This document shows positions 52,880 through 59,860 of a stretch of DNA of 64,000 bases, piece by piece. This stretch comes from Leptolyngbya sp. SIO1E4 (GTDB lineage Bacteria; Cyanobacteriota; Cyanobacteriia; Phormidesmidales; Phormidesmidaceae), in assembly GCA_010672825.2 (NCBI GenBank), contig JAAHFU020000002.1, positions 1 through 64,000 of the forward strand, given 5' to 3'. Position numbers and translations under genes: made by a program. Each line of letters opens with the position of its first letter. The first letter of the stretch is position 1. The notes beneath the pieces were generated by a model, which was given only the letters and a program-made list of their open reading frames with translations, was not told where the DNA came from and ran no database searches.

Positions 52880-54427
52880 TTAACTGCCTGAACGCAGACT
52901 ATCGATTTTGCGCACAAAGAGATCGCTGAGAATGGTAATGACACGGCGCTCTCGCAATTTGATGTTAGCCGTTACCGCCATGCCAGATTGTAGGGTCAAC
53001 GCATCACCCAGGGTTTGAGATTCGAGGTCAATTTCTGTGGGAAACCGATAGACCGGATTTACCTGATCAGGGGGTAAGGCATCGGAGCCGATGTGAGTGA
53101 CTGTACCATCAACATCCCCAAATTCGCTAAAGGGGAAAGAATCAATGCGCACATCCACAGTCAAGGGGGTGTCCTCTTGGTCAAACTGCTGTCTCACAAA
53201 CCCAATATCGCGGTTGGTGATGAACACCCGAGCCACCAGGGTATCATCGGGCACAATTTCTAAAATCGGCTCGGTTGCGTTGGCTACGTATCCGGGTTGG
53301 TTAGCCCTCAGATTAAAGACCTGACCTGCTAAGGGCGCGCGGAGTTCCTGGTTCTCGATGGCATACTCAAGGCGACTGATTTGGCCGTCTAGCTCCTCTA
53401 GCTGCTTATCGTTTTCGACAATGATTTTGGTGAGCTGGCTATCAATGTTGGCGATTTGAGTATCGTTGGCAGCAATCCGATCTAACAACTCCTCGTCAGA
53501 CACAACAGCCGTGCGACGTAACTGCTCCTCAGCTTGGGTGATGGCTAGCAGGATGCGCTCTTCTTCTTGTCTGAGGCTATTGACTTCTGTTTGGCTGTTA
53601 TTGACCTCTTGTTCCTGCTGCCAATACTGCAAATCCGCGATCGCCCCAGCTTCTACCAAGGGTTCAAGACGATCTAAGATCGTTCGCTGAAGCCCAAGCC
53701 CCTGGATGGCATTGGCTAGCTGAATACGGGTTTGAGCAAGCTGCTCAATGAGTTGATCAGCTTCCAGCTGGTTAATGGCAATTTCAGAACTGAGACCACC
53801 CAACGATGCCCGCAAGCGTTCTCGTTGCTCGGGTGATAGGTTGTCAGCCGTGACATTGCCTTGCAGAATCGCCCGATAGAGCTGATTTTCTTCAATGAGG
53901 GTGACTCGGTTGCTGGTAAGACGAGCCATTTCTGGTGAGACGGTCGTAGGGATGCCGTCTACCGCGAGATCATCGGTTGGTTCAGAGGTCTCATTCAACT
54001 GAACCCGATAATATTCATTCTCTTCGACCAGGCTCTTGCGCACCTCTTTCAAGGAGGCAAGTTCGGCTTGGGAAGCCCTAGGATCTAGCGTGACGAGTAC
54101 TTGCCCTTGTTCAACCCTTTCTCCTTCATTCACCCGAATTTCATCGACTACCCCCCCAACGGGGGCTTGTACCGGCTGCACAACACCCCTGGGCTCAAGC
54201 TTGCCTTGGGCTGGAATCGCTTCTTCGATTTTTGCGAGGCAGGCCCAGGTGACGGTGGCGACGCTAACCCCGACAATGCCCCACACGACGTAGCGCGCCC
54301 AGCGGGGAGATTGCCGGAGGATGACGGAGCGATCAAAAGCGCTCTGTACATGAGTGGGTTCTGGTTTTGAGGGTACCTGGCCATTCTGTACTTGACCGTT
54401 TTGGGAAATCCGAGGGGTAGGAGTCAT
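52880..54427 (-). CDS. HlyD family membrane fusion protein
   Basis: Periplasmic adaptor of a type I secretion system, 515 residues. A single membrane span lies near residues 40-62 (YVVWGIVGVSVATVTWACL), the split biotinyl-lipoyl halves are VQAPVGGVVDEIRVNEG and LRAPLAGQVFNLRANQPGYV, and a long coiled-coil hairpin stretches over about 120-345 (Gln/Glu/Leu-rich). The beta-barrel domain follows. AGGAA stands before the ATG. It begins 13 bp after the ABC transporter gene, so both are one operon. The outer membrane channel must be encoded elsewhere, as is usual in cyanobacteria. Confidence 0.93.
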   Translation of the reverse strand: MTPTPRISQNGQVQNGQVPSKPEPTHVQSAFDRSVILRQSPRWARYVVWGIVGVSVATVTWACLAKIEEAIPAQGKLEPRGVVQPVQAPVGGVVDEIRVNEGERVEQGQVLVTLDPRASQAELASLKEVRKSLVEENEYYRVQLNETSEPTDDLAVDGIPTTVSPEMARLTSNRVTLIEENQLYRAILQGNVTADNLSPEQRERLRASLGGLSSEIAINQLEADQLIEQLAQTRIQLANAIQGLGLQRTILDRLEPLVEAGAIADLQYWQQEQEVNNSQTEVNSLRQEEERILLAITQAEEQLRRTAVVSDEELLDRIAANDTQIANIDSQLTKIIVENDKQLEELDGQISRLEYAIENQELRAPLAGQVFNLRANQPGYVANATEPILEIVPDDTLVARVFITNRDIGFVRQQFDQEDTPLTVDVRIDSFPFSEFGDVDGTVTHIGSDALPPDQVNPVYRFPTEIDLESQTLGDALTLQSGMAVTANIKLRERRVITILSDLFVRKIDSLRSGS

Positions 54428-54440
54428 GGTTCCTCAATGG

Positions 54441-57434
54441 TTACTCAGGAGTGCTCAATTGTTGTTGAAAGAGGGTACAGTAACGGCCTTTGAGTTCCAT
54501 TAAGACTTCATGAGTCCCCTGCTCAACTGCAGCCCCTTTATCCATCACCAAGATTTTGTCAGAGTTTTGAATTGTGCTGAGACGATGGGTAATAAAGAAG
54601 ACCGTTCGTCCCTTAGCCCAAGCCTTGAGGTTGTTACATACTTGTTTTTCAGTGTCGTAATCTAGGGCGCTGGTCGCTTCGTCCAGGATGAGAAGACGCG
54701 GGTTGTGCAGAATTGTGCGGGCGATCGCGACCCGTTGCCGCTGTCCCCCCGACAAAGAAGCGCCGCGCTCCCCAACGCGGGTGTTGTAACCCAGGGGCAA
54801 ATCCATAATGAATTCGTGGGCGCAGGCAATTTTGGCAGCTTCAATAATGGCCTCTGTGTCGGCATCGGGGCGTGTCAGCGAGATGTTTTCTTGGACAGTG
54901 CCTTCAAACAGCAGGCTATCTTGAGGCACAATGCCGACTTGCTGGCGCAGGGAGTACAGCTCTACTTTGCCGATGTCGTACTTGTCGATGAGGATGCGAC
55001 CCGATTCCACTTCGTAGAGGCGGGGTAGCAGTTTCATCAAGGTGCTTTTGCCCGATCCACTCTGCCCCACAATGCCGACAAATTCCCCCGCTGGAAACTC
55101 CAGCGAAATATTGGCGAGCTGCAAAGGGCCTGATGGCGCAAACCGGAAAGCGACATTTTCGTAGCGAACGTGCCCTTGAATATCCGGCATTTGAATCTGA
55201 TTCCGTCCCTGTTCTTCCGCTTCACGGGGATGATCCAAAATGTCGCTTAAACGCTCTAGAGACAGCGCCGTCTCTTGGAAGTTTTGCCACAGTTGAGCTA
55301 ATCGCAGGAGCGGTGCCGTGACATACCCTGAAATGATGCGAAAGGCGATGAGCTGACCCAAACTCAACTCACCCTGTAAGACCAAATAGGCCCCCACCCA
55401 CAGCACTAGCAGGGCAGACAGTTTATTGAGGAAGTTGCTGGCGGCACCTGCCGTGGTGGACGTCAGCACTGTATTAAACCCAGCGCTGACATAGCTGGCA
55501 TAGCGCTCTTGCCATTGCCAGCGGGTACGCAGCTCAATATTCTGCGCTTTCACAGTTTGGATGCCAGAGAGCGCCTCCACTAAGTAAGACTGGGTAGCAG
55601 CGTTGCGCTCGGCCTTCACCCGTAGCTGGCGACGCACAATGGGAGACACCAAAACCGTTAAGCCGACAAACAAGGGAATAGCTGCCAAGGCGACCAGGGT
55701 CAGCAGCCAACTGTAGACAAACATGACGACAATGTAGAGCACGGAAAATATTGCGTCTAACACCACGGTTAGGGCAGTGCCAGTTAGGAACTGGCGAATA
55801 TTTTCGAGCTCATTGACCCGGCTAGACAGCTCTCCTACGGGACGGCGATCAAAATATCGCAGAGGGAGCCGCAAGAGATGATCGATAATTTCTGAACCCA
55901 GGGCCATATCGATGCGGTTTGTGGTGTCTACGAACAGGTACGTTCGCAAGGCACTCAAAACCGCTTCGAAAATCGCCACAATAATCAGGAAAACTCCTAG
56001 AACCTGAAGCGTGTCGATACTGTTTTGAACAATGACTCGGTCGATGATGACCTGCACCATCAATGGGTTAGCCAGGCCAAATAGCTGCACGAAAAAGGAG
56101 GCCAGCAGAACCTCAAACAGGACCCAGCGATATTTCTTGAGAGAAGGAATAAACCAGCTCAGCCCAAACCGCTGCTGGGGGGTTTCTCGGGTCTTCTCCA
56201 GGAGCAGAACTTCTCCTTCTGAGCCCCAGGTTTCTTCGAATGCAAGGGGCGTTCGCTGGATAATCCCCGTCTCTGGGACGGCGAGAATACGCGTTTTAGC
56301 ATTGGTCTCATAGAGAACGGCGAACCCCTCTTGCCAGGCAATCAGAGCGGGGGTGGGGAGGCGACCGATGGCACTGGCAGGTACTTTGGTCATCTGGGTT
56401 TTGAGGCCCATGAATTCTGCCACCTTACCCGCTAGTGGTAGCGACAACTGCCCTAAGCGATCGCGCTGGTTGGTCAGAATGCGGCGGATAATGTCTCGCC
56501 GGAACGGCATGCTAAAGTGCTGGCTGACCATTTCCAGACAGGCCAGCATCCCCTCCACATCTCCCCGCCCTCGCACAAAAGGATAGTCATCGGTGGGTTC
56601 CGTGGTTTCGGGTTCTGGCTCGGGCAGATGTTCTGGCGCGTAGGGAATATTGGCTTGTTCGGTCACAACCGGGGCAGCAGGCCCATCTTGCTCAACAGAG
56701 GGTTCCGCCGCAGGCAGTGCTGGGAGGTCTGGCAGATTGGTGAGCCCAATCAAGCGAGCGCCCTGGGGGCTAATAACTTCGACCTCATCTCCTGCCCACT
56801 CTAAATTGAGGCGACTGCCCATCGGTTGATTAATGATGGTGCCGCTGCTAACAAACCAGGTCAGCGGCCCCGTAGTTCGGCTTTTCTGAGGCAGGTCTAA
56901 GCGTTTTTTGCCGTAGGGGAGATAGCGGACAACCCCGGTTTCATAAGCTTGACGGGTGAGCTGAGCTAAATCCCCGAAATCAACGGCCTGATCCTTGACT
57001 TGACGAGCGAGTAAATCAAACACCTCTGCCAGGTAAAGCTGATCGCGCACGCTTTTACCAAAGGCTGGATGCTCATCTAAGGCTTGCTGGAAAGCAATGC
57101 TGGAGAGTTGCAGGCCAACGACCTCAGTCGAGGCGATCGCAATTTCACAGGGGGCCCCTCGTAATAACCCGACCAGGCCCAACAAAGCCCCTTCTTCTAC
57201 CAGGCTGAGGGTAATTGCTTTGGCGGTGCGGGGGTCTTCTCCCAACAGACGCGCTTGCCCCTCTAAAATGACGACCAGTTGGGGCAACGCTTCAGGGCGC
57301 ACAATCGGTTGCCCAATGCGATACCTCAAGAATTGGCTGCCTTGGGTGAGTGTTGCCAGCGTCGACGCAGGGAGCTGGTCAAACGGGGCTATGTGTGCCA
57401 GTGACGTCTTTGGGGACTGGAAAGATGCCGTCAT
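54441..57434 (-). CDS. type I secretion ABC transporter with N-terminal cyclic nucleotide-type domain and dead C39 domain
   Basis: Exporter of 997 residues. Residues about 15-140 resemble a cyclic nucleotide-binding domain (FDQLPASTLATLTQGSQFLRYRIGQPI). After an acidic Pro-rich linker (240-285) comes a C39-like domain (288-415), in which the catalytic cysteine position is Gly295 (DVEGMLACLEM where peptidases have DCGxACLAM). So leader cleavage is not expected and the domain should only bind substrate. Then follow six membrane spans (about 435-720) and the ATPase with [17 protein letters not shown] and LILDEATSALD. The layout recalls HetC and related cyanobacterial exporters. A start at 57578 is possible but the ATG at 57434 gives the better N-terminus. 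HlyD partner follows in 13 bp. Confidence 0.92.
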   Translation of the reverse strand: MTASFQSPKTSLAHIAPFDQLPASTLATLTQGSQFLRYRIGQPIVRPEALPQLVVILEGQARLLGEDPRTAKAITLSLVEEGALLGLVGLLRGAPCEIAIASTEVVGLQLSSIAFQQALDEHPAFGKSVRDQLYLAEVFDLLARQVKDQAVDFGDLAQLTRQAYETGVVRYLPYGKKRLDLPQKSRTTGPLTWFVSSGTIINQPMGSRLNLEWAGDEVEVISPQGARLIGLTNLPDLPALPAAEPSVEQDGPAAPVVTEQANIPYAPEHLPEPEPETTEPTDDYPFVRGRGDVEGMLACLEMVSQHFSMPFRRDIIRRILTNQRDRLGQLSLPLAGKVAEFMGLKTQMTKVPASAIGRLPTPALIAWQEGFAVLYETNAKTRILAVPETGIIQRTPLAFEETWGSEGEVLLLEKTRETPQQRFGLSWFIPSLKKYRWVLFEVLLASFFVQLFGLANPLMVQVIIDRVIVQNSIDTLQVLGVFLIIVAIFEAVLSALRTYLFVDTTNRIDMALGSEIIDHLLRLPLRYFDRRPVGELSSRVNELENIRQFLTGTALTVVLDAIFSVLYIVVMFVYSWLLTLVALAAIPLFVGLTVLVSPIVRRQLRVKAERNAATQSYLVEALSGIQTVKAQNIELRTRWQWQERYASYVSAGFNTVLTSTTAGAASNFLNKLSALLVLWVGAYLVLQGELSLGQLIAFRIISGYVTAPLLRLAQLWQNFQETALSLERLSDILDHPREAEEQGRNQIQMPDIQGHVRYENVAFRFAPSGPLQLANISLEFPAGEFVGIVGQSGSGKSTLMKLLPRLYEVESGRILIDKYDIGKVELYSLRQQVGIVPQDSLLFEGTVQENISLTRPDADTEAIIEAAKIACAHEFIMDLPLGYNTRVGERGASLSGGQRQRVAIARTILHNPRLLILDEATSALDYDTEKQVCNNLKAWAKGRTVFFITHRLSTIQNSDKILVMDKGAAVEQGTHEVLMELKGRYCTLFQQQLSTPE

Positions 57435-57814
57435 ACCCTTGCTTTCCGTTATTTTATTTGGCTTCTGACAGTAGAGTTTGCCCAAATTAATGCGCTTCTG
57501 CAGCGCATTAACCAACCCTGAAACAATTTGCTGGTCGATAATGGCCCATACAGGTCGCTGCCGCCTGTATGGACACAACTAACCCTGGCTAACAGAGGAT
57601 TGAAAGATAGCGGCTGTTAGCCTGACGCCCGACACAGGTCAAATCTTTCTCAGTGTAGTTCAAGACCTCAGGTATCTCGAAGGGAGCCAGGGCACTGTGG
57701 CAAGACTTCAAATAAATTTAACTGTTCGTGATGAACGGTCTGGGAATTCATGTGCGCCCAGCAAATTCTAGATGTATCCTTAGTCGAACAACACGTTTCA
57801 GGGTTAAATCTGCA
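57435..57814. other. divergent promoter region between exporter and GUN4 genes
   Basis: Holds promoters on both strands. CCATACAGG (57546-57554) and CCTGTATGG (57564-57572) form a perfect 9-bp inverted repeat, a possible operator for either unit. In-frame starts for the GUN4 gene occur at 57728 (GTG) and 57731 (ATG). Confidence 0.5.
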
Positions 57815-59335
57815 ATGGCTGAGGAGAGTCTGTCCCCGGTAATCGCTGTTAAGCCTGTCAGCATCATCCTGCAAGTGGTTGAGGGTAGCTTGAGCGTCGA
57901 AGATCGCGATCGCGCCGTCCAAGGATTGTGGGATCGTCTGATTCAGTTAGAGATTACTCCAACCGCTAATATGACGCCTTTGGTGGACAGTCGTCATTCA
58001 GATCACCATGCGGGACTGCAAGTCTTGTTGCGTGAGCCAGAACGGGTTTCAACCTTGGTGCAGGGGGTGAGCGATCGCCTCGCGGAAGCTCCGGTTGAGA
58101 TCCGACTGCTGATTGCCTTAGGCCAAATACAGGTGCAAATTCAGACCAAATATGCGGAGCGGCTGCTGGGCCTGTTGCCAGCCTTAGATACCTTGCTTCC
58201 AGCCCGTCAGCTGTTTCAAGCGAGGGCTGAAACCTATGCGCTGCGGGGGGGAGAACTATCGCCTGTAGAGCAGGCCAATTTAGAGCTATTGCGCCATCGC
58301 TTGAATCTGTCTCCCGAAATGGCTGAAAGCATTATTGCCCGTGCTTTAGGACCCTATTTAGACCGTCAGGCCAAGCTGCAGAAATATCGGGAAGTGCTGA
58401 ATGCGGAGCTAGACCGCCAATCGCCCTTGAGCGATATGACTTGGGCAGAGTTGCGGAAACTGTATCAGGCCCTCGGGTTGGCCTACGAAGATGTTGCCCC
58501 CATTGATCAAGAATACATTGCTCGGATTCAAGCAGAAGTCACTCGCCTACAGCAGCAAGAGGAGATGACCCGCTTACAGGAAGCGACTCGCCTGCAGGAA
58601 GAGGAGGTTCAGCGGGAAATCGAAGTTCAGCAAGATAAGGCTGACAATTACCGTCAAGAATTTCGTACCGCGATTGCCAAGACCCTTTACCCCAGTGAGT
58701 TTGACCGAGGCCGGTTAGAACAGGCCCGCCGCCTCTGGGAGTTAGACCCAGACGAGGTACGGGCGATCGAGCGCGAAGTGACGGATGAGCGCTATGGCCC
58801 CATTGAGTCGAAATCTCGGCTGGACTATTCACGGCTGAGACAGTTGCTCTGGCTTAACCAATGGGAACCTGCAGATCAAGAAACTGAGCGCTTAATTCTG
58901 ACGGCTTTGAGCCATGACATGCATCCCTTAGATGGCAATGCCATTCTGCGGTTGAACTGTGTAGATATCCAGACTATTGATGCCCTGTGGGCACTATACA
59001 GTCGGAGAAAGTTTGGATTTAGAGCCCAACAGCAGGTATATCTGCAGCGCGACAACCGTGCCGATGACTTTCTAGTTGCTGTTGGCTGGCAAGATTCTGT
59101 GGGGCTGGGCAACGTTAACCTGTTAACCCGGCGCAAACCCTACCGTGACCTGCAGTTTAGTCTGGACGCTCCAGCCGGGCATCTACCAACCTGGCGATGG
59201 GCCGCTGACACCTTAGAAGGTGCCTATGTTGTCGATGAAGAGATTGTAGATACCGTTTTTTTGCATCTAGAAAAATGCATGCCTACCCCGGGGCTCGGCA
59301 CTGCCCTGGGAACGCCAGATGGAGGGACACGGTAA
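57815..59335 (+). CDS. GUN4-domain protein with N-terminal helical repeats
   Basis: Protein of 506 residues. The C-terminal GUN4 domain (about 350-475) shows YSRLRQLLWLNQWEPADQET and the tetrapyrrole-binding loop region WALYSRRKFGFRAQQQVYL. The region before is helical with three degenerate copies of an L-x-L-x-x-x-x-A-x-x-I-x-x-x-x-x-x-P-Y-like unit (for example NLSPEMAESIIARALGPYL and WELDPDEVRAIEREV), separated by a Glu/Gln-rich coiled coil. True GUN4 binds protoporphyrin IX and stimulates Mg-chelatase; multi-domain GUN4 proteins may bind other ligands or sense them. The ATG at 57815 is the preferred start. The next GUN4 gene begins three bases after the stop. Confidence 0.85.
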   Translation: MAEESLSPVIAVKPVSIILQVVEGSLSVEDRDRAVQGLWDRLIQLEITPTANMTPLVDSRHSDHHAGLQVLLREPERVSTLVQGVSDRLAEAPVEIRLLIALGQIQVQIQTKYAERLLGLLPALDTLLPARQLFQARAETYALRGGELSPVEQANLELLRHRLNLSPEMAESIIARALGPYLDRQAKLQKYREVLNAELDRQSPLSDMTWAELRKLYQALGLAYEDVAPIDQEYIARIQAEVTRLQQQEEMTRLQEATRLQEEEVQREIEVQQDKADNYRQEFRTAIAKTLYPSEFDRGRLEQARRLWELDPDEVRAIEREVTDERYGPIESKSRLDYSRLRQLLWLNQWEPADQETERLILTALSHDMHPLDGNAILRLNCVDIQTIDALWALYSRRKFGFRAQQQVYLQRDNRADDFLVAVGWQDSVGLGNVNLLTRRKPYRDLQFSLDAPAGHLPTWRWAADTLEGAYVVDEEIVDTVFLHLEKCMPTPGLGTALGTPDGGTR

Positions 59336-59338
59336 GCC

Positions 59339-59860
59339 ATGACTACGACAATCGCACAGGCCAACTATCAAGAGCTGGATGAAGTTCTCAGCCAAGAAGA
59401 GTGGCAAGAAGCCGATGAAGTGACGCTGCAAATCATGTTGGAAGCCGCCGATCGCCGCCAAGAAGGATGGTTAGATCAAGCCGCGATCGCCCGCTTTCCC
59501 TGTGAAGTGCTGCATCAACTTGACCAACGATGGCTGCGCTACAGCAGCGGACGGTTTGGGTTTAGCAGTCAGTTGCAAATCTATACCCAAGAAGTTGACC
59601 GCATGGCATTTGCGTTTAGCCGCCAGGCCGGATGGACGATTTCGACCTGGCGCCCCATGGGCTTCTTTAAATTCTATGATCGGCTAACGTTTTCCCTCGA
59701 CGCCCCGCGAGGGCATTTACCCGCGCTGTGGTTTTGGGAGATGCCCTGGTATATGTCCTTGCAGATGGGGGGCTTTGGTACGGGACGAGGGGCTGGTTTT
59801 GGCGACGCCAGCTTGTTTGATGCTGTGATGCTGCGGTTAGAGCGATGCCAGCAGATTTAA
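59339..59860 (+). CDS. GUN4-domain protein, short
   Basis: Protein of 173 residues made almost only of one GUN4 domain: YQELDEVLSQEEWQEADEVT, then LDQRWLRYSSGRFGFSSQLQIY and FYDRLTFSLDAPRGHLPALWFW. These are the family landmarks, with the flexible binding loops between. It starts three bases after the stop of the longer GUN4 gene (ATG at 59339), so both are co-translated. It differs from the Mg-chelatase cofactor GUN4 in lacking the N-terminal helical bundle; its own function is unknown. The next gene is convergent. Confidence 0.88.
   Translation: MTTTIAQANYQELDEVLSQEEWQEADEVTLQIMLEAADRRQEGWLDQAAIARFPCEVLHQLDQRWLRYSSGRFGFSSQLQIYTQEVDRMAFAFSRQAGWTISTWRPMGFFKFYDRLTFSLDAPRGHLPALWFWEMPWYMSLQMGGFGTGRGAGFGDASLFDAVMLRLERCQQI

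Follow-up and report, generated by a model that had tools for sequence, protein, structure and literature searches.

Two genes that each encode a GUN4 domain, here called ORF1 and ORF2, lie in tandem in the window, the whole stretch of 64,000 nucleotides that was analysed (Table 1). They are read from the same strand with three bases (GCC) between them, and the tandem arrangement given in a first-pass annotation of this DNA is thereby borne out. The reading frame of ORF1 is open from a GTG at 57728, and the alignment of its homologues begins near 57815. As that annotation had also stated, the pair is divergent from a type I exporter, whose HlyB-like and HlyD genes are both on the minus strand. 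The gene downstream of the pair is an ABC ATPase on the opposite strand.

Table 1. Features of the locus, with positions counted in the window and residues in the respective protein.
Feature	Position	Strand	Basis
HlyD-type adaptor of the exporter	52880..54427	-	
Type I exporter ATPase/permease, HlyB-like: cNMP-binding-like + C39-like + ABC	54441..57437	-	Pfam
Intergenic region shared with the exporter	57438..57814	.	
9-bp inverted repeat	57546..57572	.	
ORF1, 506 aa: predicted EACC1-like domain + helical module + GUN4 domain	57815..59335	+	
Predicted EACC1-like alpha/beta (ferredoxin-like) domain, ORF1 aa ~10-130	57842..58204	+	hhalign, structure model
Helical module, ORF1 aa 114-327; aa ~158-268 common to caspase-domain proteins	58154..58795	+	
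Long helix (predicted coiled coil), ORF1 aa 224-286	58484..58672	+	structure model
GUN4 domain of ORF1, aa 332-460; then C-terminal helix aa 475-488	58808..59194	+	
ORF2, 173 aa, stand-alone GUN4 protein with conserved C-terminal tail	59339..59860	+	
GUN4 domain of ORF2, aa 7-139	59357..59755	+	

Both proteins matched the Pfam GUN4 family (PF05419, curated cut-off 29.2): ORF1 over aa 332-460 with E 6.4e-25 and 88.4 bits, and ORF2 over aa 7-139 with E 4e-32 and 111.7 bits. The family was also matched by all 36 of the ORF1 rows examined (Pfam, E<=1). A search of the PDB by sequence gave five matches for ORF1 at E<=1, all of them GUN4, and the same five for ORF2 together with AcrIIA5 at E 0.17. 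Similarly, GUN4 structures were the top structural matches of both predicted models (mean pLDDT 84.6 for ORF1 and 83.2 for ORF2), the ORF1 model aligning with 4xkc at VIA Z 21.0 and rmsd 1.7 over 148 residues. Pfam (E<=1) returned no caspase match, Peptidase_C14 included, in ORF1 or ORF2. A match of ORF1 to GDPD (E 0.038) was below cut-off and was regarded as chance.

The front part of ORF1 had been described as repeat and coiled coil. This description is fair, as aa 114-327 are helical in the model with a single long helix at aa 224-286, but an alpha/beta domain at aa 15-111, modelled as strand-helix-strand-strand-helix-strand-strand, had been overlooked. This N-terminal domain resembles ferredoxin-like chains (Z 7-9), perhaps by a common arrangement only. 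The arrangement of the ORF1 domains is unsure because the pTM of the model is 0.52. ORF1 has no transmembrane helix, its highest 19-residue hydropathy being 1.51.

We then examined how widely the two genes occur and how constantly they are paired. Strong ORF1 matches (E 2.7e-77 or better) were found in 37 of 57 genomes of the family, the next genome standing at 1.1e-17 among the matches listed. Strong ORF2 matches (E 1.3e-36 or better; next genome 5.9e-26) were found in the same 37, which span 8 of the 14 genera sampled. The genes were adjacent and co-directional in 36/36 genomes read, window included, with a spacing of -79 to +92 bases when counted from the first possible ORF2 start; G024, in which both genes are on separate contig pieces, stands outside these 36. 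When 84,980 species genomes were scanned by pattern for two conserved ORF1 peptides, 34 loci were recovered, and their record titles name Leptolyngbya, Leptolyngbyaceae, Nodosilinea, Halomicronema, Phormidium, Oscillatoria, Tildeniella, Shackletoniella and other cyanobacteria. Orthologues of the pair are present in Leptolyngbya sp. PCC 6406 (L278) and Nodosilinea nodulosa PCC 7104 (L302). Identity to 35 relatives was 35-61% for ORF1 and 44-71% for ORF2. Comparison of the window with four relatives gave pN of 0.20-0.33 and pS of 0.70-0.78, silent sites being near saturation; pN is well under pS in all four, and the pair is therefore under purifying selection. By these identities and rates, the two frames are genuine genes and no product of chance. 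Among the 20 loci read from genus g12, 15 (L090-L104) carry, directly upstream of ORF1, an ORF1 paralogue of 352-398 aa that has no GUN4 domain. It matches the front and helical part of ORF1 over its length (100%, profile comparison).

The constancy of the pair did not extend to the exporter. An exporter match (E<=1e-100, some partial) was present in 35/36 pair-bearing genomes searched. It adjoins the pair in 6/36, namely the window and L070, L071, L077, L078 and L079 (genera g1, g2 and g11), a count in which L075 (G017) is unreadable since it begins at its contig end. Elsewhere, in 29 of the 35 readable loci (the window counted among the 35), the exporter does not adjoin the pair. The divergent layout, whose conservation the first-pass annotation had named as a check, is thus limited to these six among the genomes read. 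The 9-bp inverted repeat that had been noted in the intergenic region is present and perfect. First-order resampling puts the probability that the 378 bp contain one or more such repeats (loop 3-20) at 0.026, but the whole window holds 20 matches of such inverted repeats, or 0.12 per 378 bp. No such repeat (arms 8 or more, loop 3-20) was found in any of the five relatives with the exporter layout. Joint control with the exporter, which had been proposed from this repeat and the shared promoter region, is accordingly not supported, and co-control through the repeat as a conserved feature was dropped. The genome has one copy of the stretch 57470-57640, which is therefore no repeat element. Two more perfect inverted repeats were seen at window positions 57487-57511 (arms TTAATGCG(C)) and 57587-57622 (GGCTAACAG); these are likewise missing from the five exporter-linked relatives.

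Two other blocks do recur upstream of ORF1. The first, TATCCTTAG (window 57775-57783), has a single occurrence in the whole window on both strands; it is found in 6/6 exporter-linked loci and once in L075. The second, AGTNTAGTNCAAG (window 57652-57664), is found in the window, L070, L078 and L079, in L077 by alignment and in L071 in a variant form. A pattern scan detected neither block in 29/35 loci, all of them lacking the exporter layout. Given the recurrence of the two blocks in exporter-linked loci, a shared promoter logic may exist in that subclade. We also observed, among other members of the class, an ORF2-type GUN4 protein after an ABC-ATPase-like gene of ~245-280 aa in 8 of 20 loci (L154-L159, L163 and L173); in L154, the only one of these run through Pfam, the neighbours are a DUF4079 protein before and a HAD-like hydrolase after. 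The six divergent loci, the recurring blocks and these ATPase-linked relatives could all be read as signs that the pair is a regulator of, or an accessory to, the divergent exporter. We consider such a role very unlikely, with the exporter present in almost every pair-bearing genome yet mostly away from the pair, and with the 9-bp repeat missing from the relatives. Since the two genes are adjacent in every genome read, while the exporter adjoins them in six and the repeat is not shared, it is the pair that forms the conserved unit, the exporter being its neighbour within a subclade.

The relation of both domains to canonical GUN4 was examined by phylogeny and by the bilin-binding motif. The genome of the window has nine GUN4 places, and the best of them is the canonical gun4 (G000:C2:1561873, E 4.6e-61). 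Maximum-likelihood analysis of 90 domains gathered the canonical, ORF1 and ORF2 rows each on one side of a branch, with support of 100/99, 100/99 and 100/96, respectively. ORF1, ORF2 and the GUN4 domains of larger proteins from other families shared a branch side at 94/89, slightly short of the program's mark of 95/80. These clade statements concern the domains used for the tree. The 90 domains were drawn from 151 GUN4 domain rows (every third ORF1 and ORF2 row and every second canonical row), taking rows of >=70 bits that reach profile position 110, with 110 residues; one EACC1-linked caspase-GUN4 protein passed, the loci extending 1.5 kb beyond the EACC1 match. The motif LxNxLR is tied to bilin binding (Rockwell and Lagarias 2023, PMC10156173). 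Its Asn is kept in 31/31 canonical rows and in none of the others: 0/36 ORF1, 0/36 ORF2, 0/20 larger proteins and 0/27 other paralogues. Downstream of the common GHLP, the window reads TWRW in ORF1 and ALWFW in ORF2, and ORF2 carries at the place of the bilin motif an aromatic stretch in which W131 and W133 are invariant (36/36). An Arg aligned to the last LxNxLR position is retained in 21/36 ORF2 rows and in 20/20 larger proteins, therefore some anionic ligand contact may persist. The missing motif may mean that tetrapyrrole binding has been lost in the pair.

Phylogeny, motif loss and the canonical gun4 elsewhere in the genome together back the earlier statement that these domains are unlikely to be the Mg-chelatase cofactor. 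Additional cofactors of the chelatase would share the fold and the domain family, as ORF1 and ORF2 do, but with separate clades, the motif lost in every row of both proteins and a canonical gene in place, we find this hardly credible; ORF1 and ORF2 as true GUN4 duplicates were rejected on the basis of clade and motif. Another explanation would make the pair chaperones of a tetrapyrrole, or of another pigment or lipid, that sequester a photoreactive compound, the front of ORF1 only docking and no signalling being involved. The intact GUN4 fold seen in the comparison with 4xkc and the two invariant ORF2 tryptophans are in line with this, but the bilin motif is lost and the EACC1-like and orthocaspase-type helical parts described below indicate signalling systems, and we regard a pure chaperone function as unlikely.

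Other GUN4 proteins were seen in the same genome. A 757-aa protein (L118:1643-3916, G000:C5:521156) carries a GUN4 domain and two stretches of OAA-family lectin sugar-binding domains, and another (L119:2438-4666, G000:C7:150554) combines a NACHT NTPase with a GUN4 domain. At L123 (G000:C1:1141330), a frame that by eye is TIR-like (836-1804) precedes a GUN4 match that contains an inner TAA, so the gene may have decayed.

The N-terminal domain of ORF1 was compared with EACC1. In the account of the EACC1 system by Kaur et al. 2020 (PMC7159879; PMC8195603 is also relevant), EACC1 is encoded by the 5′ gene and the following gene often has a caspase domain; the description of the system names actinobacteria and proteobacteria. 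A search of 116 genomes with Pfam EACC1 (PF19953) gave two cyanobacterial matches, one above the cut-off, and the one below it sits directly 5′ of a caspase-helix-GUN4 gene. Relatives of this EACC1-like protein were found in 70 of 242 class genomes. Among 30 of their loci, a caspase gene lies directly 3′ on the same strand in 26, and GUN4 was found within the 1.5-kb flank in at least 13. EACC1-like genes 5′ of caspase or caspase-GUN4 genes are now seen in cyanobacteria, where they may have been reported before. The 30 loci gave a set of 25 EACC1-like proteins, from which the truncated or frame-broken L233, L234, L235, L240 and L250 were omitted; PF19953 matched 10/25 at E<=0.1 (best 1.1e-5).

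Aligned with this set by hhalign, the ORF1 N-terminus (~125 residues) matched end to end with 93.4%, E 2.4e-7, over 112 columns. With 28 of the 30 loci, it gave 93.3% and a score of 44.9, to be compared with 18.1 for the best of 200 column shuffles and 13.6 for the reversed set; ORF2, used as a control against the EACC1-like set, gave 0.4%. Searched against 987 ORFs, the ORF1 N-terminal profile found ORF1, the upstream paralogue and otherwise only EACC1-like proteins of six loci. The best of these scored 53.4 bits (114.9 bits for the same protein as EACC1-like), and 5/25 proteins of the set were reached, three at 30.0-43.5 bits and two at 14.5-16.5. In the opposite direction, the EACC1-like profile gave 20.5 bits at best for ORF1 relatives, the window ORF1 not being among the best 12 rows. 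PF19953 itself had no match at E<=1 in the window ORF1, and at most one of the 36 ORF1 rows could match it at that level among the matches listed (38 families). Hydropathy was over 1.6 in 1/36 ORF1 rows and in 0/25 of the cyanobacterial EACC1-like set. The N-terminus of the upstream ORF1 paralogue did not match the EACC1-like profiles (0.2-0.3%), which, for that paralogue, tells against a plain EACC1 explanation. For ORF1, an architecture of EACC1-like domain, helical module and GUN4 domain appears fairly well supported.

The window's genome has an EACC1-like gene with a caspase gene behind it (G000:C1:1578024-1578377 and 1578609-1579268). Elsewhere, at G000:C1:941763-942059, lies an EACC1-like fragment that is broken by an in-frame TGA and downstream of which no caspase was found. 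At L308:4270-4653 (minus strand; this is L229, minus strand), a second EACC1-like gene lies beside a caspase gene split in two frames and is opposite in strand to another EACC1-caspase pair; none of the other proteins searched comes closer to the ORF1 N-terminus (53.3 bits).

The helical segment of ORF1 (aa ~158-268) was found again in other proteins. Ten of them, a part of those matched, were scanned with Pfam: a caspase domain was found in six (L105, L108, L110, L112, L113 and L115), two of which (L105 and L113) also have GUN4. A TIR-GUN4 protein (L117) matches ORF1 aa 215-487. In L313 and L314, an EACC1 gene stands before caspase, then the helical segment (ORF1 profile ~120-250) and GUN4 (ORF1 profile 331-455). 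ORF1 is colinear with this order, the caspase excepted. This colinearity, together with the EACC1-like and caspase genes of the window's own genome, which has 10 caspase-domain places, could suit a trans-acting modulator or decoy: ORF1 would compete for the EACC1/helical partner and keep orthocaspases off. We hold this to be quite unlikely, as 17 of the 37 pair-bearing genomes have no EACC1-like gene at E<=1e-5 and the caspase protein linked to EACC1 in the window's genome carries the helical segment without a GUN4 match. EACC1-like genes are not enriched with the pair either (20/37 genomes versus 12/20 without it), and on these counts a partnership of the pair with EACC1-caspase genes of the same genome was dropped.

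We propose that ORF1 and ORF2 form a non-proteolytic two-subunit sensor/adaptor module related to EACC1-orthocaspase-GUN4 systems, and we give this model an even chance of being right. A presumed single operon would yield both proteins as putative subunits of a soluble, non-catalytic signalling module. ORF1 would be the caspase-less counterpart of an EACC1 / orthocaspase-GUN4 two-gene system with its halves fused, and ORF2, a GUN4 protein that stands alone, would belong to the same GUN4 supergroup. The GUN4 domains would detect a small molecule, with a tetrapyrrole as the likeliest candidate, through a pocket that has been remodelled relative to canonical GUN4, and the EACC1-like/helical part would relay this state to a candidate partner by binding.

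The fusion, the lack of a caspase and the constant pairing within the clade would be easier to reconcile with a settled regulatory role than with a defence gene that changes fast. A more specific scenario, which we put forward tentatively and think rather less than probable, is that of a domesticated programmed-death or anti-invader system: an EACC1 / orthocaspase-GUN4 pair would have been deprived of its protease, its halves fused and a second GUN4 subunit gained, and would now be fixed as a housekeeping sensor of tetrapyrroles (pigment state) among Leptolyngbya/Nodosilinea-like filamentous cyanobacteria. The caspase may have been lost or gained in the descent that links the pair to the caspase systems; the reverse case is equally conceivable, in which the caspase-less sensor would be the older and the protease systems may have derived from it. 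Both the role and the sensed ligand of cyanobacterial GUN4-domain proteins, those with caspase domains included, are questions here. The small paired caspase-free form is a direct way to ask whether the GUN4 module still binds tetrapyrroles, and it also poses what the EACC1-like domain does without a protease.

Compared with GUN4 itself (Synechocystis Sll0558; PF05419; PDB 1y6i, 4xkc and 7e2t), the pair largely keeps the fold and the core residues (W, FG, Q and AP.GHLP), but it has no LxNxLR, another C-terminal tail and other N-termini, and falls in separate clades. With the cyanobacterial GUN4 paralogues of sll1380 type the pair shares one trait: according to the part of PMC10156173 that treats this clade, no member has the LxNxLR Asn, which is missing from the pair too. 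Unlike these paralogues, ORF1 and ORF2 are paired and ORF1 has an EACC1-like front; the words 'tandem', 'fused', 'operon', 'neighbor' and 'domain architecture' do not occur in the main text of that paper. With the EACC1 two-gene conflict system (System 4 of PMC7159879; PF19953), as outlined there, the similarity probably concerns both halves of ORF1: its N-terminus would be a divergent EACC1-like domain, and the helical/GUN4 part of some second genes equals the rest of it. ORF1 differs from that outline in being one fused gene, in having no caspase (or cyclase) 3′ gene and in lacking a transmembrane helix, whereas a conserved transmembrane helix with a small-residue patch is given there as a trait of EACC1. 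Orthocaspases with GUN4 domains share the helical module and GUN4 with ORF1; their caspase domain is missing from ORF1 and ORF2. In the counts given by a survey of such proteins (n=473 orthocaspases, PMC8283722), GUN4 is an accessory domain 29 times. For GUN4 in cyanobacterial conflict systems, Kaur et al. suggest in their discussion of these systems (PMC7159879) a response to tetrapyrroles and hence to the photosynthetic state.
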